64,000 nt of DNA, from contig CAJOEM010000003.1 of NCBI GenBank assembly GCA_905233725.1, positions 43,148 through 107,147 of the forward strand, in the 5' to 3' direction. Shown piece by piece: positions 18,501 to 31,926 of the stretch (positions are counted from its first letter, which is position 1; every line of letters starts with the position of its first letter). The position numbers and the translations under genes are program-made. Under the pieces are notes generated by a model, which searched no databases, was not told the origin of the DNA, and saw nothing but the letters and a program-made list of their open reading frames with translations. The DNA is from an uncultured Synergistales bacterium. GTDB taxonomy: Bacteria; Synergistota; Synergistia; Synergistales; Aminobacteriaceae.

Positions 18501-18983
18501 GATGAAAGCGTGAAGAAAATATTGACAGTTTGGCTGCTGAGATTTTTCGCTAGTCCTGAAGGCGTGAATTTGCTCAGACACTCCGGGGATCTAAAGCGTG
18601 AATCCGCATTCAGAATAGAGCTTGGTAATCTGATTTTGGCGGGCTCGATTGACGTGTTGTATCAAGAGCAAGATTTCTACAAATTGCTGGATTACAAGAC
18701 GACTTTGAGCGATAACGCACCTGATGGATTATACGAATCACAGATGGATTTCTACGCTTTTGCATTGAGCCGCTGCGTGAAAAATCCGACTTGCAAAATC
18801 AAAACTGGGATCGTATTCTTGCGTGAGGGGAAATATCTTGAGCGTGAATATTCAGAACGTGACTGTGAAAATATCCGCGAGAGAATCATAATTGCGTCTA
18901 AGAATTGCCTGCTTGAAAATCAAAAGCATAATCATAACTGCGAAAAATGTCCGTTTAGAAAGGGTTGCAAAAATCATGAGTAA
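15540..18983 (+). CDS. UvrD/AddA-like helicase-nuclease
   Basis: 1147 aa; VDASAGTGKTWVLSQRY; LVDEFQDTDPLQYRM; GDPKQSIYRFRHAE; C-terminal nuclease-like region with Cys cluster (C..CPFRKGC). Confidence 0.93.
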   Translation: MPNANINQQIAIQSRANRITVDASAGTGKTWVLSQRYFSILLQDELTPNDILTLTFTQAAANDMKKRIQNRFPDSKSEISASLAQSWISTIHAFASRLLKQSGLSLDLDPTASVISPRQQSDFWLSIRLALAYSNLHSLTASHEKFLNDTAKFLDSNSTLSAAVNKWGAEFLTRLAEDFSDLHASRGLSWREVLANSDEPKLIERAKIPVTKILSQHWEQIYSNWQNIHDLPEPNPKSKGYENARMFNEILNHHDDFTPRDFYTKLTSKNLRASTGEPFKSLKEFLGVTFGVWRSSQPKRITKITQNLDTKILTQELELRSVLIKFCALCWGIWDITKRRRGIMSFSDMISHALQAIEEGAVTKNFAHILVDEFQDTDPLQYRMICALADQSENNSFFAVGDPKQSIYRFRHAEPELFAQAIDAASERVTLDVSFRTRPSLLERINRIFGSIWKHSLGNSAAMSKLSYKRIQPAEISPERNNGTMKDFETIFQVKYDSDSVKNLALKLAQKVRTCVDNKLTIWDKDSQMIRPIEFADFAVLCRSRTHYEILEEAFASFAIKTIQDRSTGYFGRGEVSDIISMLRACADFNDDASVAGWLMSPFSGANESDALRILKLRSQDSNRKIISILEQELPEIFHRLEHLALIGEIKGAASVIEIFDRDRSWLTDYKFENRLRIIRNLRQAISIAMSFQEGGVSGLSACSEWLGRAMSGGVTLDEPSWRDKNENAVSLISIHGSKGLEYPAVAIFETKTTHSEHYDNLRASRELGLVFSDIPDEMKPEIFDSESDLQISDWDKLLNEQGEREEDLRLFYVAATRAQDSLIFCSLLKESGEAYENSWAKILFEHAAEYMQDSEPESESKIQIQMLDKPDNTQDLPNLQRVNLARINTHLRQISATSFSLYEFCGNAWRRKYLQGINLTWESPEKDFANDDNSEFFGGADIGSLAHWVLSKINLKSGDHESEIAKLLNSRESLNHLPVKLRGVWRDESVKKILTVWLLRFFASPEGVNLLRHSGDLKRESAFRIELGNLILAGSIDVLYQEQDFYKLLDYKTTLSDNAPDGLYESQMDFYAFALSRCVKNPTCKIKTGIVFLREGKYLEREYSERDCENIRERIIIASKNCLLENQKHNHNCEKCPFRKGCKNHE

Positions 18984-19719
18984 TATCACTAATCCAAAAG
19001 CCGCAAAGAACAATCAAGAATTTTACTTGACATGCGAACGTTATTACATATTCGAGTTACTGACGCTTGCTGGCGGAATGATGGGACTTTACACGTACAA
19101 TATGCGCGGAGGAGTTTTCTGTAACGCTCAGACCGGAAATGTTGCCATGATGTCTATGGCGTTCGGCAAGGGAAATTTTCGTGAAGCCGGGTATTATTTG
19201 ATCCCGTTGATTGCGTATATTCTTGGAACAATCGTATCCGAAGTTATGCCGCTGAAAATTCGCAAATCACACTTCATGCGCTGGGATACTTTGCTGGTCG
19301 GTATCGAAGCTACGGTCTTGATCTTAATCGGCTTCATTCCGTTGACGATGCCGCACCAAATCGTGCAGGTCATGATAAATTTTCTGTGTTCGATGCAGTT
19401 CAACACGTTCAGACAAGCCGAGGGAATCCCAATGGCTACAACTTTCATAACGAATCACGTTCGGCAAATCGGCGTGAATATCGCGTCCGTAATCCGGGAT
19501 CACGAAAACTCAAGCGCAAAACAGAAATTACGCAAACACTCGCAATTACTAATCACGTTCTTTACCGGTGGAGCAATCATGACGTTCATGAGCAAATTTT
19601 TACAAGAACGCGCAATCTGGTTAGCTGTGTTGCCGCTGGTTATCTCGTTCGTATTTTTGCTGCACGCTGACCTTGTGAACGAGAAAAGCAAACTAGACGT
19701 CAAGCCGCACGGTCATTAA
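18976..19719 (+). CDS. DUF1275 (YoaK-like) membrane protein
   Basis: GGMMGLYTYNMRGGVFCNAQTGNVAMMSMAFG is typical of DUF1275; ATG at 18976 preferred over the upstream ORF start at 18892. Confidence 0.85.
   Translation: MSNITNPKAAKNNQEFYLTCERYYIFELLTLAGGMMGLYTYNMRGGVFCNAQTGNVAMMSMAFGKGNFREAGYYLIPLIAYILGTIVSEVMPLKIRKSHFMRWDTLLVGIEATVLILIGFIPLTMPHQIVQVMINFLCSMQFNTFRQAEGIPMATTFITNHVRQIGVNIASVIRDHENSSAKQKLRKHSQLLITFFTGGAIMTFMSKFLQERAIWLAVLPLVISFVFLLHADLVNEKSKLDVKPHGH
19537..19700. repeat. Copy A of a ~164 bp local direct duplication (3' end of the DUF1275 gene)
   Basis: Near-identical to 19720-19883 by eye: cactcgcaattactaatcac...aatcatgacgttcatgagcaaatttttaca...gagaaaagcaaactagacgt. Confidence 0.95.
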
Positions 19720-20639
19720 CACTCGCAATTACTAATCACATCGCATTCTTTATCGGCAATCATGACGTTCATGAGCAAATTTTTACAGGAACGCGCAATC
19801 TGGATAGCTGTGTTGCCACTGATTATCTCGTTCGTATTTTTGCTGCACGCTGACCTTGTGAACGAGAAAAGCAAACTAGACGTTACGTCGCCGTACAAAA
19901 ATGCAACGTAGCAGCCAACGCTCAAAAACGGAACTAACGGCACGGATTCTTTTTTCCCCCAGTGAATTTTGCCGATTAAAAGCAATATCAAAACGCAAAT
20001 TCCGCCGAACATGATCCCGATATAAAACGCAAGTATCGCAAGTTTCCAGCCGAGCAACGCTCCCATGCCAGACATGAACGTCGCATCTCCCCAGCCCATG
20101 CCGCCACGCGAGAGAATTATTATCAGCGCGAAAATTCCGAAGCCAAACAACGCTCCAAAAAATCCATCAAGTATCGCGTCAAATCCCCAGTAAATTCTCA
20201 GCAGCAATCCCAGAATAACGAACGATAACGTGTACGCATCAAAAATTTCTCCGGTCTCAATATCCGTCAGAGAGTTAATCATGATCCCGCAAATTCCCAC
20301 GCACGCCAGCAAAGTCTCGAACGATAATCCGTGCCTGAAAATTATTGATGCAAAAGCAATTCCTGTTATCAACTCGACGAGCAAATATCTCACTGAAATT
20401 CTCGCTCCACAGTTCTTGCACCTGCCGCGCAAACACAGCCAAGACAAAATCGGTATTAATTCCCAAAATCCCAGCTCATGCTTGCAAGTCTCACAAATCG
20501 AACGCTCACGTCCCCACCATGGACGCCCCTCGATGCTACGATGCGCAACAACGTTCAAGAACGAGCCGAAACTCGCTCCCAAAATCGCAAATATCACTAC
20601 ACAAAATTCACGCTCAAACTCGAACTCAAATCCCATCAT
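19716..20639 (-). CDS. A24 family prepilin peptidase (GspO/PilD-like) with an atypical chimeric C-terminus
   Basis: GASFGSFLNVVAHRS, C..C...C..C zinc motif (ICETCKHEL...RCKNCGARIS), TDIETGEIFD, GMGWGDATFMSGMGALLGW; last ~55 aa are encoded by the antisense of duplication copy B. Confidence 0.9.
   Translation of the reverse strand: MMGFEFEFEREFCVVIFAILGASFGSFLNVVAHRSIEGRPWWGRERSICETCKHELGFWELIPILSWLCLRGRCKNCGARISVRYLLVELITGIAFASIIFRHGLSFETLLACVGICGIMINSLTDIETGEIFDAYTLSFVILGLLLRIYWGFDAILDGFFGALFGFGIFALIIILSRGGMGWGDATFMSGMGALLGWKLAILAFYIGIMFGGICVLILLLIGKIHWGKKESVPLVPFLSVGCYVAFLYGDVTSSLLFSFTRSACSKNTNEIISGNTAIQIARSCKNLLMNVMIADKECDVISNCEC
19720..19883. repeat. Copy B of the ~164 bp local direct duplication (degenerate DUF1275 3' fragment)
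   Basis: Same block as 19537-19700 with a few substitutions and small indels; lies antisense inside the 3' end of the prepilin peptidase ORF. Confidence 0.95.
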
Positions 20640-21022
20640 CTATAACGCCTGCGAGACTCGTAATCCCGCGCATAAATTTTCCCACCGTATGTCCTCAACT
20701 GGTTTTTCTCTTTCAATCTGTCTACTTCTCTCTGGAATTCCTCCGCCTGTTGTTTACGTGCTTCAGCTGAACTCGTGTAGGTCTGAATGTCACGCTCAAG
20801 CCAGCCAATCTCGACCAAAATCTGCACATCATACGAATTCAGGTCACAATCATACGCAAGTTTACGCACATCGAATCTCTCATTCGGATGATCTCGCAAA
20901 TATTCGTGAGCGCGTCCGTAAACTGACTCCAAATGTCTGTAACAATCCGTACACAAATTCCCTCTGCCCTTATCAACTCCAATGAAAGCTTTTCCGCACC
21001 TTCTGCACGCAATCAACGGCAA
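20636..21022 (-). CDS. YvyF/TIGR03826-like flagellar operon protein
   Basis: C..C...C..C zinc-ribbon N-terminus (CRRCGKAFIGVDKGRGNLCTDCYRHLESVYGRAHEYLRDHPNERFDVRKLA). Confidence 0.7.
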   Translation of the reverse strand: MPLIACRRCGKAFIGVDKGRGNLCTDCYRHLESVYGRAHEYLRDHPNERFDVRKLAYDCDLNSYDVQILVEIGWLERDIQTYTSSAEARKQQAEEFQREVDRLKEKNQLRTYGGKIYARDYESRRRYR

Positions 21023-21123
21023 TTCTCAAATCCTCCCTTCTGCTTATAACATGCTTATGATAATTACGTATTTTTTCATATTTTAGCATTCAGGATTCAT
21101 TTCTCCAAAACTTGTGAATTTTT

Positions 21124-23442
21124 TCAGAACAGCAAATTATTCTCGCTATCGTTCACACGTCGTCCGGGCGTAAAAACTTTCACATTCACAGACGCAGTTT
21201 TCCCGGCAGAATCTACAGCACTAACCAAATGCTCTCCGTCTTGAAGCGAACAGAAAAACGTGTTATCCGGCGACGAACTCCCGGCAAATTCTCCGTCGAT
21301 ATACCACCAGACACGCCTGACTCCCCCCTCGGATTTCAACGGGATTTTGCGTTCAAGATCAAACGGCGCGATAAAATACGAAGCTCCAGGAATTGGCGAA
21401 ATAATTTTCAGCGCGTAATTTCTGCGTTCGACTCTGGACGTGGGATTATTTCTGGCGATATTTGCGAACTCTGGCGACAAACTCAGAATAGATTTTCCGG
21501 CTCTGATCTTGTGCATGTCACACGGAACTGTGCGAGTTACTCCGGCGATCGCCCACTCGTATTTCACCGACGGACACGCTGCTGTCGGGGGCATTCCTGA
21601 GACCGAACACACACGGCGCAATTCTAAACCTTCAGGACGTTCATACCAAGTTGACTTCGGCGAAATCACTCTCAGGATTTTCATAGCAATCGGTGCAGCA
21701 GCTCTCGCTCCAACCAATCCGCGCCAGGAAATTCCCTCGGGACTTCCTACCCAAACGACCGTCGTATAATCCGGAGTCCACGCAGCCGTCCAAGCATCAC
21801 GCAATCCGTAAGACGTTCCAGTTTTCAGCGCAACCTGCCATTTTCTCCCCAAAGTTCCACGCGCAAATAACGTCAAATTACCCCGATGATTCAAAATATC
21901 GTTTACCAACCAGCACGAAGCTTCAGAAGCAAATCTCGAATCTGAATCCCAATCCGAATGCGAATCTTGATCTTTCAGCAGCGAAATCTGTCTGTATTTT
22001 CCCAACGACGCCAAGCCACAGAAAGCCTCAAGTTCCTCGAACAGCGTAACCTCACAGCCACCGAGAATCAGCGAGTCCCCGTAATATTCCGAATTCTGCG
22101 TTAAATGCTTCAAGCCAAGCGAACGCATCAAACTCAGCACGCGATCATTCCCGGACATTCGCAACACACGAACCGCCGGCGCATTCAGCGATTCAGCAAG
22201 AGCAACTCGTGCAGTGACAGCCCCGTGATATTTCAGGTCAAAATTCCTCGGAGCACGCCCGGAAAATGCCATCGACGTATCCGCAAGCAAACTCGACGGT
22301 GTCAAAATTCCCTGTTCAATCGCAAGCAAATACGCAAACGGCTTCAAAGTCGAACCAGGTGATCTCGGAGCACGTCCGCAATCCACCCATGATGACGCAT
22401 TCTGAGTATTATTCAGATTAAAGCGCGCATTGCCAACCCACGCTACAAGTGACGCATCACGATTATCGACAACTCCTGCAGAAATCGTGACTTCATTTGG
22501 AAAATCCGAGAGTGATTGGCGCAAAATTCCTTCAAGTTTCGTCTGAGTTTCCAGATTCAGCGACGTGTGAAAAATTCTCTGGTGAAAATACGTGTCGTCA
22601 AAATCTGGATTCGAGCTCAGCACCATGTCCGAAAAATGCCACGCTCTCGACGGCAGATCATTTTTTCGAACGGGTAATTCTTCGAGCAATGCCAGTCTGG
22701 TTTCTTCAGGCGTGAAAACACGTTTCTTGCGCATGAGATTTATGATTTCGTCACGGCGTTTTTTCGCAGCGATTGGCTTTGTGTCCGGACGGTACAGTGT
22801 TGGACCTTTGAGCATTCCGATTAAAAGACACGCTTCACCCCGAGAAATTTTCGACGCTGGTTTGCCGAAATATATCAACGACGCTGCCTGAACTCCGCGA
22901 ATATTTCCGCCGAATGGTGCGAGATTCAAATAGCATTCCAGGATTTTCTCTTTTGAGATTTTTCGCTCAAGTTTCATAGCCATGACAAATTCACGAACTT
23001 TTGTAGACGGTGTGCGTTTGCGATTCTCACGCTCAGAAACTGCAAGCCTGATTACCTGACTGGTGATTGTCGATGCTCCGGAAATTACCCGCCCAGAGAT
23101 TGCGTCCTGAAAAATTGCTCGCGAAAGTGAAAGCAAATCTATCCCGATGTGCCTGAAAAATCTCCCGTCCTCAGCATTCACAGCAACCAACGGCAGCCAT
23201 TTTCCCATCTCGTCAAGCTTAATCGGAATTTGCCACTCAGAATCCGGCGAAAGTCTCACGTGAAACAATCTTCCCTCACGATCATATAACGCCGACGAAC
23301 CGTTGATATTCACGACCTGATTCACATTCACGTCAACGCTGAACCAAACAAAAATTCCCGACGCGAATATTGCCGCAAAAAAAATCGCTCCCCAAAATTT
23401 CCAGGGAGCAAAATTACGGGATCTATTGCTATTTTTTGCCAT
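21124..23442 (-). CDS. pbpC: penicillin-binding protein 1C (transglycosylase/transpeptidase)
   Basis: VNAEDGRFFRHIGIDLLSLSRA; GASTITSQVIRL; SPGSTLKPFAYLLAIEQG; KTGTSYGLRDAWTAAWTPDYTTVVWVG; PbpC-type C-terminal domain. Confidence 0.95.
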   Translation of the reverse strand: MAKNSNRSRNFAPWKFWGAIFFAAIFASGIFVWFSVDVNVNQVVNINGSSALYDREGRLFHVRLSPDSEWQIPIKLDEMGKWLPLVAVNAEDGRFFRHIGIDLLSLSRAIFQDAISGRVISGASTITSQVIRLAVSERENRKRTPSTKVREFVMAMKLERKISKEKILECYLNLAPFGGNIRGVQAASLIYFGKPASKISRGEACLLIGMLKGPTLYRPDTKPIAAKKRRDEIINLMRKKRVFTPEETRLALLEELPVRKNDLPSRAWHFSDMVLSSNPDFDDTYFHQRIFHTSLNLETQTKLEGILRQSLSDFPNEVTISAGVVDNRDASLVAWVGNARFNLNNTQNASSWVDCGRAPRSPGSTLKPFAYLLAIEQGILTPSSLLADTSMAFSGRAPRNFDLKYHGAVTARVALAESLNAPAVRVLRMSGNDRVLSLMRSLGLKHLTQNSEYYGDSLILGGCEVTLFEELEAFCGLASLGKYRQISLLKDQDSHSDWDSDSRFASEASCWLVNDILNHRGNLTLFARGTLGRKWQVALKTGTSYGLRDAWTAAWTPDYTTVVWVGSPEGISWRGLVGARAAAPIAMKILRVISPKSTWYERPEGLELRRVCSVSGMPPTAACPSVKYEWAIAGVTRTVPCDMHKIRAGKSILSLSPEFANIARNNPTSRVERRNYALKIISPIPGASYFIAPFDLERKIPLKSEGGVRRVWWYIDGEFAGSSSPDNTFFCSLQDGEHLVSAVDSAGKTASVNVKVFTPGRRVNDSENNLLF

Positions 23443-25057
23443 TCAATTTTATTATATCCAGCGTATAACCAGCGATGTTATTGCTATGATCGCCGATCCT
23501 TTCGAGATTGCTCAGTAATGTGATAAAATTCACGCCTTTCTCCGGATCACATTCGCCGCGATTGAGTCTGTCGATATGTGCCTTTCTGTAGGCGCGTTCC
23601 TGAGAATCGATTTTTTCTTCGAGTTCCTTCACGACCATCAGAGCTTCAGCGGAATTTTCATTATAGAGCGAATCAACCGACGAACTCACAGCCTTCACCG
23701 CCGTATCGAACATGTCTTGCAATTCGTCATGAGCTGCTCCGGACAAATAATCCGCGCTATTTACACTTTCACTCATTTCGATCAAATTCTCAGAATGATC
23801 GCCGATTCGTTCAAGATCAAGTGACGCGTTCACGTAGCAGCCAAGAACCGTCGAAACCTGTCCGGAAACGCCTCTCTGCCAAATTTCCGACGCATATTCA
23901 GAAATCGCTCTCGTCAAGGAATTTATGCTTTGTTCGTAAGATTCGAATCTTTTTACGCGATTTTCACGTTCTTCGGGCTTGTAATCAAAAAATGACTCGT
24001 GAACCAGTCCAAGCATTTTCTGGATCACGCCGCCCATGTGTCCGAGTTCATCACGAACAGCTTCGACAGCAGCAGACGTTGACGCAGTGATCAAAACCGG
24101 ATTCAAATACATGACTTCTTCGGGGCGATCTTCGGGTAATAACGGCAGAACTCTCTCGATCAATTTCGCGAGCAATGACACAAACGGGAAGAATATTACT
24201 GTATTGAGTACGTTGAAAATCGTGTGAGCGTTTGCGATTTGTCTGCCAATATCCGACGCACTCGCAACTACGATTGACTTGTAAATCGGAAACGCAATCA
24301 GGAATATAACAGTGCCGAGCAAATTAAATAATACGTGTGACGCAGCAGCTTGTTTTGCAGGACGGCTCGAACCCATCGCTACGACTATTGCAGTGAGTGT
24401 CGTTCCCAAGTTATCGCCCAAAATTATCGGAATAGCAGCATCAAGCGTAATCAATCCCTGAGAAGCAACCGCCATCGTTAGACCAATCGTTGCAGCACTA
24501 GATTGAATCAAAATTGTCAGGATCATTCCGGCTAAGACACCTGTCAGCGGATTCTGGCTCAGGATTAGCAGCATGTCTTTGTGTTGCGAGATCAAGTGTG
24601 TTGCGCCTTCCATAGTTTGCATTCCCATGAAGAGCAATCCCAAACCGACAATGCCGTTTCCCATGTACGCCAGCTGTTTCTTTTTGCCGAAGACTGTCAG
24701 GACAACTCCGAACGCAATCAATGGCAACGCGAACGCCTCGATTTTGAACGCGATGATTTGCGCCGTGATTGTCGTTCCGATATTTGCGCCCATGATAATT
24801 CCGATTGCCTGCTTGAGTGTGAGCAATCCTGCATTAACGAAACTCACCGTCATGACCGTTGTACCCGTACTGCTCTGAATCAAAACCGTAACGAGTATTC
24901 CGACGAAAACTCCGCGCAAAGGTGTCTTAGTCAAATTGCCGATTATCTGACGCATTTTGTCGCCTGCGATGAATTGCAAAGATTCACTCATCATTTTCAC
25001 GCCGTACAAGAACAGCGCAACTCCACCAGCTATGTTAAAAAAACTCTTGAGATCCAA
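23429..25057 (-). CDS. Na/Pi cotransporter family protein with C-terminal PhoU-like domain
   Basis: Internal repeats GANIGTTITAQI / GDNLGTTLTAIV and QSSTGTTV / QSSAATIGL; helical PhoU-like tail. Confidence 0.94.
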   Translation of the reverse strand: MDLKSFFNIAGGVALFLYGVKMMSESLQFIAGDKMRQIIGNLTKTPLRGVFVGILVTVLIQSSTGTTVMTVSFVNAGLLTLKQAIGIIMGANIGTTITAQIIAFKIEAFALPLIAFGVVLTVFGKKKQLAYMGNGIVGLGLLFMGMQTMEGATHLISQHKDMLLILSQNPLTGVLAGMILTILIQSSAATIGLTMAVASQGLITLDAAIPIILGDNLGTTLTAIVVAMGSSRPAKQAAASHVLFNLLGTVIFLIAFPIYKSIVVASASDIGRQIANAHTIFNVLNTVIFFPFVSLLAKLIERVLPLLPEDRPEEVMYLNPVLITASTSAAVEAVRDELGHMGGVIQKMLGLVHESFFDYKPEERENRVKRFESYEQSINSLTRAISEYASEIWQRGVSGQVSTVLGCYVNASLDLERIGDHSENLIEMSESVNSADYLSGAAHDELQDMFDTAVKAVSSSVDSLYNENSAEALMVVKELEEKIDSQERAYRKAHIDRLNRGECDPEKGVNFITLLSNLERIGDHSNNIAGYTLDIIKLNGKK

Positions 25058-25174: not shown

Positions 25175-26380
25175 TTGCTTACACTGGATAAAGTCTATCA
25201 CGCAGCGTACGTCTTGAAAGAATGTGCGCGAAAAACTGATTTGATTGCGGCACCGTTATTGAGTGCGGACGGCGGATTGTATCTCAAGACCGAAAATCTT
25301 CAAGTCACCGGAAGCTTCAAGTTACGTGGCGCATATTACAAGATCTCGCAATTATCTGACGAGGAAAAATCTCGCGGGATCGTTGCGTGTTCTGCAGGAA
25401 ATCATGCTCAGGGTGTGGCGCTTGCTGCTTCGAAAAAAAATATTGCCTCGACGATTTGCATGCCGGATTCTGCACCGGTTATGAAAGTCGAAAGTACGAA
25501 GCGTTTGGGAGCGAATGTTGAACTTGTGAACGGAGCTTACGATGACGCACATGACAGGGCTGTGCAGCTTGTGAACGAAACCGGAGCAACTTTCATTCAC
25601 CCGTACGATGATGATTACGTGATTGCTGGACAAGCTACGATTGGTCTGGAAATTCTGGATCAGCTCGAAGATGTTGAGAACGTGATTGTGCCGATTGGTG
25701 GTGGCGGATTAATTTCAGGAATTGCTTTTGCGATTAAGTCACTCAAACCCAGCGTGAAAATTTTCGGGGTTCAAGCAGCCGGAGCTCCCAGCATGTTCAA
25801 CTCGTTCAAGAATCATCAGCGTGAAAGTTTGGCGAGTGTTTCGACATTTGCCGATGGAATTGCCGTGAAAAATCCTGGTGAGACGACGTTCGAAATAATT
25901 TCGCGATACGTTGATGACATAGTCTGCGTGAGTGAGGACGAGATAGCCGCAGCGATTCTTGCATTAATCGAGAAGCAGAAGTTAATCGCCGAGGGAGCTG
26001 GAGCAGTTTCTGTAGCAGCAGCCATGTTCAGGAAATTGCCGATTGATTCGCAAAAGACCGTTTGCATAATTTCTGGTGGGAATATCGACGTGAATATTCT
26101 GTCGCGTGTGATAACTCGTGGACTTGTGATGACGGGACGTAACGTGAATCTCACGATTGAGTTAATCGACAAGCCCGGGCAATTACAGGAAGTTTCGGAA
26201 ATTATCGCGCGCTGTGGAGCTAACGTTGTGTCTGTTTATTACGATCGCGGCGACACGAACATGGCAATCACGAGCTGCTTCTTGAAACTTGCCTTAGAGA
26301 CAAAAGACAGCGAACAGATACAGTTAATAAAAGACAAGCTCACGGAATCCGGCTTCAAAATCGTTACGGAACGCGTGTAA
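25175..26380 (+). CDS. ilvA: threonine ammonia-lyase (threonine dehydratase)
   Basis: LYLKTENLQVTGSFKLRGAYYKI; SAGNHAQGVALAA; PIGGGGLISG; C-terminal ACT-like domain; TTG start after AGGGGG. Confidence 0.93.
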   Translation: MLTLDKVYHAAYVLKECARKTDLIAAPLLSADGGLYLKTENLQVTGSFKLRGAYYKISQLSDEEKSRGIVACSAGNHAQGVALAASKKNIASTICMPDSAPVMKVESTKRLGANVELVNGAYDDAHDRAVQLVNETGATFIHPYDDDYVIAGQATIGLEILDQLEDVENVIVPIGGGGLISGIAFAIKSLKPSVKIFGVQAAGAPSMFNSFKNHQRESLASVSTFADGIAVKNPGETTFEIISRYVDDIVCVSEDEIAAAILALIEKQKLIAEGAGAVSVAAAMFRKLPIDSQKTVCIISGGNIDVNILSRVITRGLVMTGRNVNLTIELIDKPGQLQEVSEIIARCGANVVSVYYDRGDTNMAITSCFLKLALETKDSEQIQLIKDKLTESGFKIVTERV

Positions 26381-27516: not shown

Positions 27517-28521
27517 TCAGGGATCAATCTCAAGCTTGAAAATTTCGCAGTTGTATTTCTCGTGGGCTGAAAAATTTTCCGGAGACGTTACGAAACATTG
27601 CCAGTTAGTTTGAGCGAGTTTTTTGAAGCTGAACGCGCGATTTTCGGGGTCTAATTCTGCGAAGAGGTCGTCGAAGAACAGCACAGGATTTTTCCCGAGA
27701 GTTTTCGCGATTAATTCTGCGGCTGAGATTATGAGTTCGAGAGTCAGTTTGCGTTTTTGACCGCGGCTGAGAGCGATTGCCAGGTCGTCGTAATTTGCGC
27801 CAACGATCGGGTGTAATGCGTAGCGTTCGCGTTGAGAAGTTCTCTGGATTTCCCTGAAAAGAAATTCTGCGCTTGATGAGTCAGGAATTTCTGGAAATAG
27901 CTTGAGTGTGAAATCTTTATGCGAAATTTGTGTGAGAACTCTGCGACGTGCGTCCATGATCCAGCCGCCCAATTTGCAGAACGGAATATCAGTTGCTGAG
28001 GCGGGGAGATTTTTTCGAAGTAAGTCGATTCGATTTCGCGTTATGAATCTGAACTCGGATAATCTTTTCGCGAACGCTGGGAAAATTAGCGCACAGAGTT
28101 TGTTCAGGAAGCTGCGTCTGATTGATGGAGCGCCGTCGATGAGATTCACGCTTGTTGGCGAGAAGAATATCGTTGGGATTTCGAGGCGTAATTCTGTGCT
28201 GGAGATTCTTTTCTCGTTGAAGCGCAGTGAAATTTGGCTGGAAATTTTCGCTTGAATATTGCTTGAGAGATTTTGCGCAGAACGAACACCCTGCCCAATA
28301 TTTGCGTTGAGCAGAGTGTTTTGATTCATGGAATGATTCCAGTTCTGAAGGTCGCGAATTTTCCCGAAAGCACCCCAACCTGAGAGAATACTGAAAGCCT
28401 CGAGGAGATTAGTTTTTCCTGAAGCGTTTTTGCCTATAATGAGATTGAGATTTGTTGACCAGCTGAATTTTCTGGAGTCGAAATTCCGAAAGTTAATTGC
28501 GCTTAAATTTTCGAAGATCAC
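27517..28521 (-). CDS. recF: DNA replication/repair protein RecF
   Basis: NLIIGKNASGKTNLLEAFSIL; LSRGQKRKLTLELI; FFDDLFAELDPENR. Confidence 0.95.
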   Translation of the reverse strand: MIFENLSAINFRNFDSRKFSWSTNLNLIIGKNASGKTNLLEAFSILSGWGAFGKIRDLQNWNHSMNQNTLLNANIGQGVRSAQNLSSNIQAKISSQISLRFNEKRISSTELRLEIPTIFFSPTSVNLIDGAPSIRRSFLNKLCALIFPAFAKRLSEFRFITRNRIDLLRKNLPASATDIPFCKLGGWIMDARRRVLTQISHKDFTLKLFPEIPDSSSAEFLFREIQRTSQRERYALHPIVGANYDDLAIALSRGQKRKLTLELIISAAELIAKTLGKNPVLFFDDLFAELDPENRAFSFKKLAQTNWQCFVTSPENFSAHEKYNCEIFKLEIDP

Positions 28522-29849
28522 GCGTTGAATCCGTCGTCCTGTTCAGAATTTGTGTTGTCCCAAGAATCTTGCTCTTGTTCTGGCTCTTGAGTTTCAAAAT
28601 TTTCCGGAACTGGTTCTTGTTCTGGTTCTGGGTTTGAGTCTGTTTCGGAAATTTGCGTTTGAGAACTGGGAGCGAAATCTGAGATCTCGTCGTCAGTTAT
28701 TATGTCTTGCGGACTTAATCTTGCGGGCATGAGCATGTATAGGAAATCTTCGCTGTTGCTTCTGAACAAGCGGGCTTGACCTTCTACGTCACTGAACTCG
28801 ATTGAGACTTCGCACGCGCCCATAGCTTTGAGACCGTCCTGTAAATAACCGACGTTAAAGCCTATGACCATTTGAGCGCCGTCGATTTTAGCGTCGTTTG
28901 AATCTATGACTTCGCTTGAAGCGCCTAAATCTGGAGCACGAGTTGTGATTTTTAGCTCGCCGTTTGGGATCATGGAGATAGCCGCGATGTGAGTCGGAGT
29001 AGTTTTCGCGATAACGTCGATGCGATCGAGAGCCGAGTTAAATTCGTCGCAGTCGATTTTGAGAGTAGTTCTGATGTCTTTATTGAGAATGCGTTCGTAT
29101 GCTGGGAAAGGAGCTTCGATTCGCCTGATAGAGAATTCTATGTCGTCGAGTTTGAACCAGACAGTTGAGCCATCTGAGAGAATCTTGACGAGAGATTCGC
29201 TTTTGGAATTTGACTGGATATTTTTTGCGAGTTCTTTCAGAGCTGCGGCAGGTAAGAGCAAGTCGTCGATTTTTTTGATTGTGCAGAAATTCTGAGAGAG
29301 AGAAAGTCTTTTGCCGTCAGTTGAGACAGCTTTGATGCAAGTTTCGTTAGTTCGCAGCAGGCACGTTCCGAGATATTTTGGGAAATCTGCTGGAGTTGAA
29401 CTGGCGCAGCTGCCTTCGTTTACGAGTTTGATGAAGTCTTGAGCCAAGATCTCGCAAATTTCCTCTGCGGAGTTGCTTTTTGGGATTCCCGGAAAATCTG
29501 CGACAGGAATGATCGTGAAGCGAGTGCGGCTTTTTCCTGCTGTGAGTACACCGCGTTCGTTATTGACCTCGATGATGATTTTGTCGGCTTTGATTTTTTT
29601 GAGTAAGCTGCCCAGAAGCGAGACTGGCAGAACGGCAGAACCTGGTTCTAGAACGTTTACGCCTTGAGCGCAGCATTTCACGGAAGTTTTTAGGTCAGTA
29701 GCTTCGAGAGTAACGATTGGCTGGTTAAATTGCGAATCTGCGTTGATGAAGATTCCGGAGGTAGACTCGACAGTAGTTTTGGAGCTTGCGGATTTTTCAG
29801 CGAGTTGCCATGCTTTGAGGAATTCAGAGCGTTCGATTTCAAGTTTCAT
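28518..29849 (-). CDS. dnaN: DNA polymerase III beta subunit
   Basis: MKLEIERSEFLKAWQLAEKSASSKTTV... sliding-clamp N-terminus; ORF extension to 29969 is a Lys-rich read-through of the oriC-proximal tract. Confidence 0.94.
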   Translation of the reverse strand: MKLEIERSEFLKAWQLAEKSASSKTTVESTSGIFINADSQFNQPIVTLEATDLKTSVKCCAQGVNVLEPGSAVLPVSLLGSLLKKIKADKIIIEVNNERGVLTAGKSRTRFTIIPVADFPGIPKSNSAEEICEILAQDFIKLVNEGSCASSTPADFPKYLGTCLLRTNETCIKAVSTDGKRLSLSQNFCTIKKIDDLLLPAAALKELAKNIQSNSKSESLVKILSDGSTVWFKLDDIEFSIRRIEAPFPAYERILNKDIRTTLKIDCDEFNSALDRIDVIAKTTPTHIAAISMIPNGELKITTRAPDLGASSEVIDSNDAKIDGAQMVIGFNVGYLQDGLKAMGACEVSIEFSDVEGQARLFRSNSEDFLYMLMPARLSPQDIITDDEISDFAPSSQTQISETDSNPEPEQEPVPENFETQEPEQEQDSWDNTNSEQDDGFNA

Positions 29850-29958
29850 GTTGTGTAATATACGTCCTTTCAGAAATAATTTTTTGTCTTTTTCAGATTT
29901 TTTTTGTTTTTGTTTTTTGTCTTTTTTGTTTTTTGATTCAGGTCGCGTTTTCAAAAAC

Positions 29959-30221
29959 TTGTCCACCATACACCACCTAGTATTACTTTTTTAAAGCAGT
30001 AGTAGTAGTAGAGTAAGGTTTTTTTGGTGGATAACCTCAAAAAATGCGGATGAAGCCATGTCAGAACTGAAAAGCATATCCACCAAGATTTGCGATTTTT
30101 GGTGGATAAGTGGTGGATAGTTGGTGGATAGTGGTGGATAAATAATGAACTCTCAAAAAGTTGTCCACCAAAACTGCGAGTTATTCACCAAGTATCCACC
30201 TAGTTATCCACCTTGTCCACC
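29959..30221. other. oriC: oriC: about 12 DnaA-box-like 9-mers (GGTGGATAA/G and TT[A/G]TCCACC) plus a DnaA-trio-like track
   Basis: Boxes at ~29959, 30026, 30076, 30101, 30112, 30123, 30133, 30161, 30181, 30192, 30204, 30213; trio track agtagtagtagtagag at 29998-30013; located between dnaA and dnaN. Confidence 0.92.
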
Positions 30222-30372
30222 AAAATTTTCACCAGACCTCCGCCCAGTCATCACAAAGCTTTAAGTCACTTTTTTGGGAATCATTTCTGAACTCGCTTCA
30301 AAACGTGATTTTTTTTGAACTGGATTTTTGCGAAAATTCACTTTTTCTGACTAATCATGACTACAAGCATGG

Positions 30373-31926
30373 CTACCAGTAATATAATCGATTGAGCTTG
30401 TCCTTCACTTCTGAGACAATGAACTTGATTTTACTGTCATGTTCGAGCAAACTCGCAATCTTTTTTTCAGCGTGCAATACCGTCGTGTGATCCTTCTTGT
30501 GAAACGCTCGCGCAATCTTTCGCAGGTTTACATCAGTCATGTTGCGGCTCAAATACATCGCAATCTGACGAGCCAAAGCCAAATCATTCGAACGTCCCGA
30601 GCCATCAATGTCATCGTACGAAACGTTTAGATATTCCGCGACCGTGACTTTTATGTCTTCGATTGAGATTTGCGACTTCGGCTGCTCAAATTTCAGAACG
30701 TCCGACAGCCATAATTTCACGTGGTCAATATCAACCGGCTCTTTCTTAAGCTCAGACGAAACCATAACGCGATTCAGCGCACCCTCAAGCTCACGGATAT
30801 TACTCGGAATATGCCGCGCCAAAAATCCCGCGACTTCATTAGGCAGATCATAATCTTTCAACATAGCTTTCTTCTGCAAAATCGCAACTCGCGTCTCAAA
30901 ATCCGGGGGCTGAATATCCGCAACTAATCCCCAGGCAAAGCGGCTGATCAACCTGTCCTCGATTCCGCGCAACTCAGATGGCGGTCTGTCCGAGCAAATC
31001 ACAACCTGCTTGTTAAAATCTCTAAGCGTGTTAAACGTGTTGTAAAATTCCTCCTGACTCTGGTCCTTATTGCCCAAAAACTGAATATCGTCAATAAGCA
31101 ATATATCAACGCTGCGATAACGCGCACGAAATTCTCGCATCTTCGACGTTGCAATCGCGTTCACGAATTCATTCAGGAATTTCTCAGTTCCAAGATATTG
31201 CACTTTAAGATTTGACGACCTTGAATTTGACAATGCGTGATGACATATTGCGTGCATCAAATGCGTCTTGCCAAGTCCAACGCCTCCCCAGATAAACAAC
31301 GGGTTATACGCTTTGCCGGGCATTTCCGCAACTGCCAAACTCGCCGCATGTGCCAACCTGTTCGATTTCCCAACGACAAACGTCTCAAACGTGTATCCAG
31401 GATTCAAATTCGCAAATTTCACGTTAGCTCTGACAGAATTACTGGACTTGTGAATCTTAGAGAACGAATCAGGATTCTTTTTATCGAGATTCTTTTCGGA
31501 CTGAGGCTGATCGTCAAATGCTAAATCCAACTGCACACTTTTCTCCGGAGTACTCGACGTTAACTTAACAGAATGCAAATTATTCTTCACAGCCCCATTA
31601 TCTAACTCCTTCAAAAAATTTTGCGCCACGTATTCTTTTACAAACGGATTCTGCGTATCTACAACAAGCGCATTATTCTCATCAATCTTCAGCGGAGTAC
31701 AGCTACTCAGCCACAAAGACACCCTGTCTTGGGGAAGTCCGGATTTAGATATAATATTTTCCCATAAGTTTTTCAGGTCTTGACAGTTCCCGTGATCATG
31801 ATTTTTACTCTGATTTTTCTGATTCTCCTGTTCCCGATTATCGCTAATATTATTCTGCAATTCTTCGTTCACAATATCACACTCCGCTGCGCAAATTATA
31901 AAATCCCTCCAGATCGCAAAATCCAA
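30373..31926 (-). CDS. dnaA: chromosomal replication initiator protein DnaA
   Basis: YNPLFIWGGVGLGKTHLMHAI; VDILLIDDIQFLGNKDQSQEEFYNTFN; C-terminal LARQIAMYLSRNMTDVNLRKIARAFHKKDHTTVLHA; exact start uncertain. Confidence 0.97.
   Translation of the reverse strand: MDFAIWRDFIICAAECDIVNEELQNNISDNREQENQKNQSKNHDHGNCQDLKNLWENIISKSGLPQDRVSLWLSSCTPLKIDENNALVVDTQNPFVKEYVAQNFLKELDNGAVKNNLHSVKLTSSTPEKSVQLDLAFDDQPQSEKNLDKKNPDSFSKIHKSSNSVRANVKFANLNPGYTFETFVVGKSNRLAHAASLAVAEMPGKAYNPLFIWGGVGLGKTHLMHAICHHALSNSRSSNLKVQYLGTEKFLNEFVNAIATSKMREFRARYRSVDILLIDDIQFLGNKDQSQEEFYNTFNTLRDFNKQVVICSDRPPSELRGIEDRLISRFAWGLVADIQPPDFETRVAILQKKAMLKDYDLPNEVAGFLARHIPSNIRELEGALNRVMVSSELKKEPVDIDHVKLWLSDVLKFEQPKSQISIEDIKVTVAEYLNVSYDDIDGSGRSNDLALARQIAMYLSRNMTDVNLRKIARAFHKKDHTTVLHAEKKIASLLEHDSKIKFIVSEVKDKLNRLYYW

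Follow-up and report, generated by a model that had tools for sequence, protein, structure and literature searches.

The prepilin peptidase encoded in this genome of an uncultured rumen-type bacterium has lost the native C-terminal end found in its relatives and terminates instead in 55 residues read from the antisense strand of a partial duplicate of the neighboring DUF1275 gene. The tail is most likely an accidental by-product of duplication and rearrangement, not a designed function. We analyzed a window of 64 kb, by which we mean the whole stretch of DNA under study, and the features of the locus are collected in Table 1. The four named records matched by our search are all metagenome bins assigned to Synergistaceae or Synergistales; two came from the rumen or reticulum of goats and one from red deer, and the source of the fourth, Th196P3bin106, is unstated. 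The recF-like, dnaN-like, and dnaA genes at 27517-31926 on the minus strand of the window place the rearranged locus close to the likely replication origin.

Table 1. Features at the junction between the DUF1275 gene and the prepilin peptidase gene (positions in the window)
Feature	Position	Strand	Basis
DUF1275 gene, 247 aa, native C terminus ...LDVKPHGH*	18976..19719	+	PF06912, orthologue ends, conserved pair
Copy A, source of the duplication, 3' end of DUF1275	19535..19700	+	Repeat search, orthologue consensus
Copy B, partial tandem duplicate, non-coding for DUF1275, without PHGH*	19718..19883	+	
Prepilin peptidase (A24) ORF, 307 aa, convergent to DUF1275; residues 1-252 native core (within a codon or two)	19716..20639	-	
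New 55-residue tail, T253-C307	19719..19883	-	Genus matches mostly antisense DUF1275
TTAA common to both stops: DUF1275 TAA 19717-19719 (+), peptidase TAA 19716-19718 (-)	19716..19719		
Putative breakpoint joining the peptidase core to copy B; site of loss of the native peptidase tail and stop	19884..19890		
Putatively relocated block: peptidase, yvyF-like, penicillin-binding protein, Na/Pi cotransporter	19716..25057	-	
yvyF-like gene	20636-21022	-	Weak TIGR03826 match
Penicillin-binding protein gene (pbp)	21124-23442	-	
Na/Pi cotransporter gene (NaPi)	23429-25057	-	
PLP enzyme gene, beyond the putatively relocated block	25175-26380		

An earlier note on this DNA had claimed that a block of ~164 bp (19537-19700) is repeated just downstream. 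This was borne out by our comparison, in which 149 of the 166 bases at 19535-19700 are identical between copies A and B in an ungapped alignment with an offset of 183 nt. For the second copy, placed by the note at 19720-19883, the end was correct and the start was not, as copy B begins at 19718. The repeat search detected 22 identical nucleotides at 183-nt spacing (19535-19556 / 19718-19739), and the same repeat continues for 136 nt at 95% identity (19573-19708 / 19756-19891). Over 19535-19700, the exactly matching runs are 22, 32, 15, 13, and 61 nt long. This pair is the sole direct repeat of at least 45 nt in the window. The two copies differ by four substitutions and, toward the left end, by a single compact +5/-5 change, and no other match that might have been the template for the changed stretch of copy B was found in the window or the genome. 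A lone, simple tandem duplication of 183 bp is ruled out. The sequence following 19700 (..CAAGCCGCACGGTCATT) is unlike the one following 19883 (..TACGTCGCCGTAC), and a second event is therefore needed.

The DUF1275 protein matches Pfam family PF06912 (E=8e-42) and has the C terminus conserved in the genus, because all DUF1275 orthologue loci that we read end in PHGH*. Copy A runs into KPHGH*, and copy B lacks this end. At the sites that can be polarized (W-L, CCG, and FFxGG), copy A has the common state and copy B the changed state; the complex change in copy B destroys the conserved FFxGG motif. Based on the PHGH* end and the common states in copy A, the comparison with orthologues marks copy A as the native source and copy B as a derived, incomplete copy, in support of the local partial duplication with copy A as its source that had been proposed before. 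The DUF1275 gene itself is intact beside the duplicate.

Type IV prepilin peptidases (A24) cleave and methylate prepilins. In the window enzyme, both domains, A24_N_bact (PF06750) and Peptidase_A24 (PF01478), score above the Pfam cut-offs (99.1 bits against 23 and 50.3 against 26.5, respectively). The catalytic aspartates D126 and GWGD185 are intact, the C49/C52 and C74/C77 pairs are invariant in the alignment, and the catalytic core is complete. Nearly all orthologue matches in a search of 60 relatives stop at query residues 250-263, and the orthologues of the genus and the order lose similarity at residue ~251. A native tail of ~24 residues, 'G.EIFAYLSxR....EIF..SWPF', was present at nearly all genus loci that we read; this tail is a trait of the genus and does not define A24. 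The window peptidase has VTSS...SNCEC at this position, and the genus-typical EIFAYL..SWPF tail is absent after residue ~251. Pseudomonas aeruginosa PilD stays active with a C-terminal His tag, and the C terminus therefore tolerates additions (PMC3584216). Together with the intact core motifs, this suggests that the window enzyme probably still works.

By coordinates, peptidase residues 253-307 (55 aa) are encoded by the antisense strand of copy B, and copy A read in the same antisense frame encodes a peptide 86% identical to the tail. No Pfam family matched the tail, of which NTNEIISGNTAIQIAR is a tryptic peptide. When 43 genomes of the genus were searched, only weak matches were obtained beyond the two copies in the window genome; in the 42 other genomes, the relatives of the tail lie mostly antisense within DUF1275 genes and are usually interrupted by stop codons. 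Several expectations of the earlier note were thus confirmed: similarity to orthologues ends where it had predicted, orthologues lack the window tail, the last ~55 residues come from the complementary strand of copy B, and copy A encodes nearly the same antisense peptide. Its statement that the enzyme acquired its tail from the reverse strand of a neighbor is right as to the gain and incomplete, as a conserved native tail was also lost. The term "overprints" did not hold. An overprinted antisense gene lies in a host sequence that is still coding, and copy B has neither a start nor the conserved end of DUF1275. Because copy B lies past the DUF1275 stop, the two convergent coding sequences share just the 4 nt TTAA at 19716-19719, and no other sequence is doubly coding.

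In relatives, the genes at this junction belong to different neighborhoods. Across the genus, DUF1275 forms a conserved pair with the RecB-like helicase-nuclease gene that precedes it, and yvyF-peptidase is another such pair, located apart from the first in the genomes examined; DUF1275 was not near the peptidase in the relatives that we examined. The relatives thus retain the ancestral state of separate gene pairs and native peptidase tails. In one relative (G011, L079), the only one from which this adjacency is known, DUF1275 is directly followed by the orthologue of the PLP enzyme (85% identity, ~100 nt spacing). In another (G020, L086), peptidase-yvyF-pbp-NaPi occur in the same order elsewhere, without DUF1275, and the peptidase there ends normally. 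Read most simply, the block of four genes would have been inserted in the lineage of the window with DUF1275 on one side and the PLP enzyme gene on the other, and its left junction would lie inside copy B. The window holds a single yvyF-like gene, compared with two or three in tandem upstream of the peptidase in many relatives.

We consider it probable that the locus arose by duplication of the 3' end of DUF1275, followed by a breakpoint in the dispensable copy that cut off the end of the peptidase. The last ~166-183 bp of DUF1275 would have been tandemly duplicated just past its stop, leaving DUF1275 intact with a dispensable second copy behind it. The peptidase-yvyF-pbp-NaPi block would then have been set beside DUF1275, or a deletion would have followed, with the breakpoint inside the dispensable copy and inside the last peptidase codons. 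Such a breakpoint would remove the native peptidase tail of ~24 residues and its stop, and translation would then run antisense through copy B to the TTAA from the conserved end of DUF1275. The locus has an adjacent direct repeat, a complete source gene, and a partial copy joined to another gene, as expected of a breakpoint chimera. An intermediate in which copy B and the peptidase tail are both intact was not seen among the relatives, for which the best peptidase identity is 60%. The order of the two steps, which we infer, could also be reversed. In this unlikely alternative, the block fused into the only DUF1275 3' end, which is today's copy B and hence the older, broken end, and copy A was restored later from another allele. 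The four substitutions between the copies are indeed allele-like: in the frame of DUF1275, two are synonymous, and L/I and V/I exchanges also occur. However, copy B is derived at the polarizable sites and has lost FFxGG, and the reversed order requires a second allele together with a non-homologous join exactly past the stop. Somewhat less likely still is an assembly artefact, in which two strain variants were joined and copy B or the peptidase fusion exists in no cell. The genome is a draft of 57 contigs that resembles metagenome bins, and several contigs start or end within short tandem repeats, which are hard to assemble. Against this, several differences, spaced by at most 61 nt, distinguish copy A from copy B, and the copies are therefore not one read set assembled twice; they join with just a few bases in common, the reading frame is open across copy B, and comparable structures are present in several different assemblies from the genus.

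A selected novelty, in which the tail helps the peptidase by membrane anchoring, partner binding, or cysteine chemistry, or in which the antisense mRNA end controls the DUF1275 mRNA, is very improbable. The composition of the tail (5 Cys, net charge 0) might suit such a role. If expressed, the peptidase mRNA would carry ~165 nt with ~90% complementarity to the DUF1275 mRNA end, and no convincing RNA terminator was found at the junction between the convergent genes; any antisense pairing of the two transcripts is a guess. The fold of the DUF1275 end was no better than those of shuffled sequences. The open frame, however, is expected by chance. According to the genetic code, an antisense stop can occur in this frame relation only where, in the DUF1275 frame, a Tyr codon follows one with C or T in the third position or a His or Gln codon follows one with T there. 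The final stop requires no extra change, as the terminal His codon of DUF1275 and the TAA behind it together spell TTA or CTA, which the peptidase frame reads as a stop on the opposite strand. Open antisense stretches make up 16% of the 56-codon stretches in this relation in the genes of the window, and 8 of 30 orthologue DUF1275 ends are open in this frame; no selection is therefore needed. Selection on the reading frame of copy B, for which the frame-neutral +5/-5 change might speak, is unsupported. Retention of the frame is weak evidence because either half of the change alone, as a single indel, would shorten the ORF by just 5-7 codons. Moreover, the tail belongs to no conserved family, and an AlphaFold2 model of the peptidase, based on a shallow alignment of four sequences (mean pLDDT 56), falls below 50 from residue 251. 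There is no sign of selection on the tail, and it is most likely neutral, as judged from one genome.

Duplications at gene boundaries are not confined to this locus. Elsewhere in the genus, the 3' end of a Na/Pi cotransporter gene is present a second time, in tandem behind the gene (338 nt, 95%), and forms a 113-aa ORF (L118:1137-3114, G005), the 3' end of DUF1275 is repeated ~3 times (L095:7243-8199, G027), and the 3' end of a prepilin peptidase gene is repeated together with the spacer (94.5%; L031:1477-2567, G003). A 464-kb sample of the window genome (G000) contained two more cases away from contig ends, on contigs C13 and C1, where the names bioA-like and mtaB were assigned by reading the sequences. 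The bioA-like gene has its 3' end repeated ~2 more times downstream (79-86%; L171:11271-12735, C13), and a ~145-bp unit occurs three times at the boundary between mtaB and the next gene (L157:5943-8527, C1). Similarity of MtaB to most orthologues stops at residues 427-437 of 469 (full-length matches are 411-437), and its last ~33 residues, absent from orthologues, are encoded in a shifted frame by a duplicate of the 5' end of the following gene. As read from their sequences, at least two proteins of this genome, the peptidase and MtaB, carry tails from boundary duplications. This recurrence in the genome and the genus argues against a one-off artefact. We counted six boundary tandem duplications in the 464-kb sample, of which three lie at contig starts, versus two in 400 kb in each of the genus and order controls. 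A strong excess in the genus was thus not upheld, the counts being suggestive for this genome and unconvincing against the controls, and we claim no unusual rate because the counts are too small. The starts of contigs C2, C11, and C12 (L158, L168, and L170) and the end of C2 (L218) lie within short tandem repeats; the assembly thus seems to break at repeats of this type, which would leave them undercounted. It seems hardly likely that boundary tandem duplications are a recurrent source of new C termini on either strand in this Synergistaceae genus (antisense in the peptidase, shifted sense in MtaB), with some tails selected or some transcripts mutually antisense. At another locus (L069:274-3756, contig C9 of G009; the same locus as L032), the prepilin peptidase and an upstream lectin/LRR/Ig-like surface protein, which ends in GGGGCNIGFNFAMLGLLLGFF, lie together in a single ORF of 1160 aa; this ORF is either a real fusion or an assembly or frameshift effect.

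The peptidase tail locus is probably a neutral breakpoint chimera, and it provides a clean and still readable case in which a conserved enzyme end was replaced by sequence that never coded in that direction, with the source copy, the breakpoint, and the ancestral state all visible. Together with the MtaB case, it points to a route to new protein ends that can be put to the test, in which a short tandem duplication past a stop creates spare DNA that can absorb a breakpoint and may then serve as template in any frame. In chimeric ORFs formed where a duplication or rearrangement breaks, coding sequence is joined to whatever adjoins it across the breakpoint. Existing coding sequence was likewise joined across a breakpoint here, but the added part is antisense, and the same genome has a second tail from a boundary duplication in MtaB. 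Our literature search returned papers on overlapping genes and overprinting and no case of exactly this antisense-tail kind. Convergent overlapping pairs need stop-codon changes (PMC4161906). As in overlaps created by stop-codon relocation, the peptidase gene lost its stop and reads toward its convergent neighbor to a new one; in contrast to those pairs, the read-through lies in a duplicated scrap of the neighbor, which limits the overlap between the working genes to 4 nt, and the stop was lost together with part of the native tail and not by mutation of a single codon. The antisense overprinted genes of Escherichia coli O157:H7, laoB (PMC5810103), ano (PMC5960689), and pop (PMC7103648), also derive a new peptide from the antisense of existing coding sequence. 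They are described as complete ORFs inside a gene that still codes, whereas the present case is a C-terminal tail on an old enzyme with a non-coding duplicate as its template. Finally, the window enzyme shares with PilD (A24; PMC3584216) the A24_N and Peptidase_A24 domains, the two catalytic Asp residues, and the four-Cys motif, but differs in that 55 foreign residues stand where the genus-typical tail is missing.
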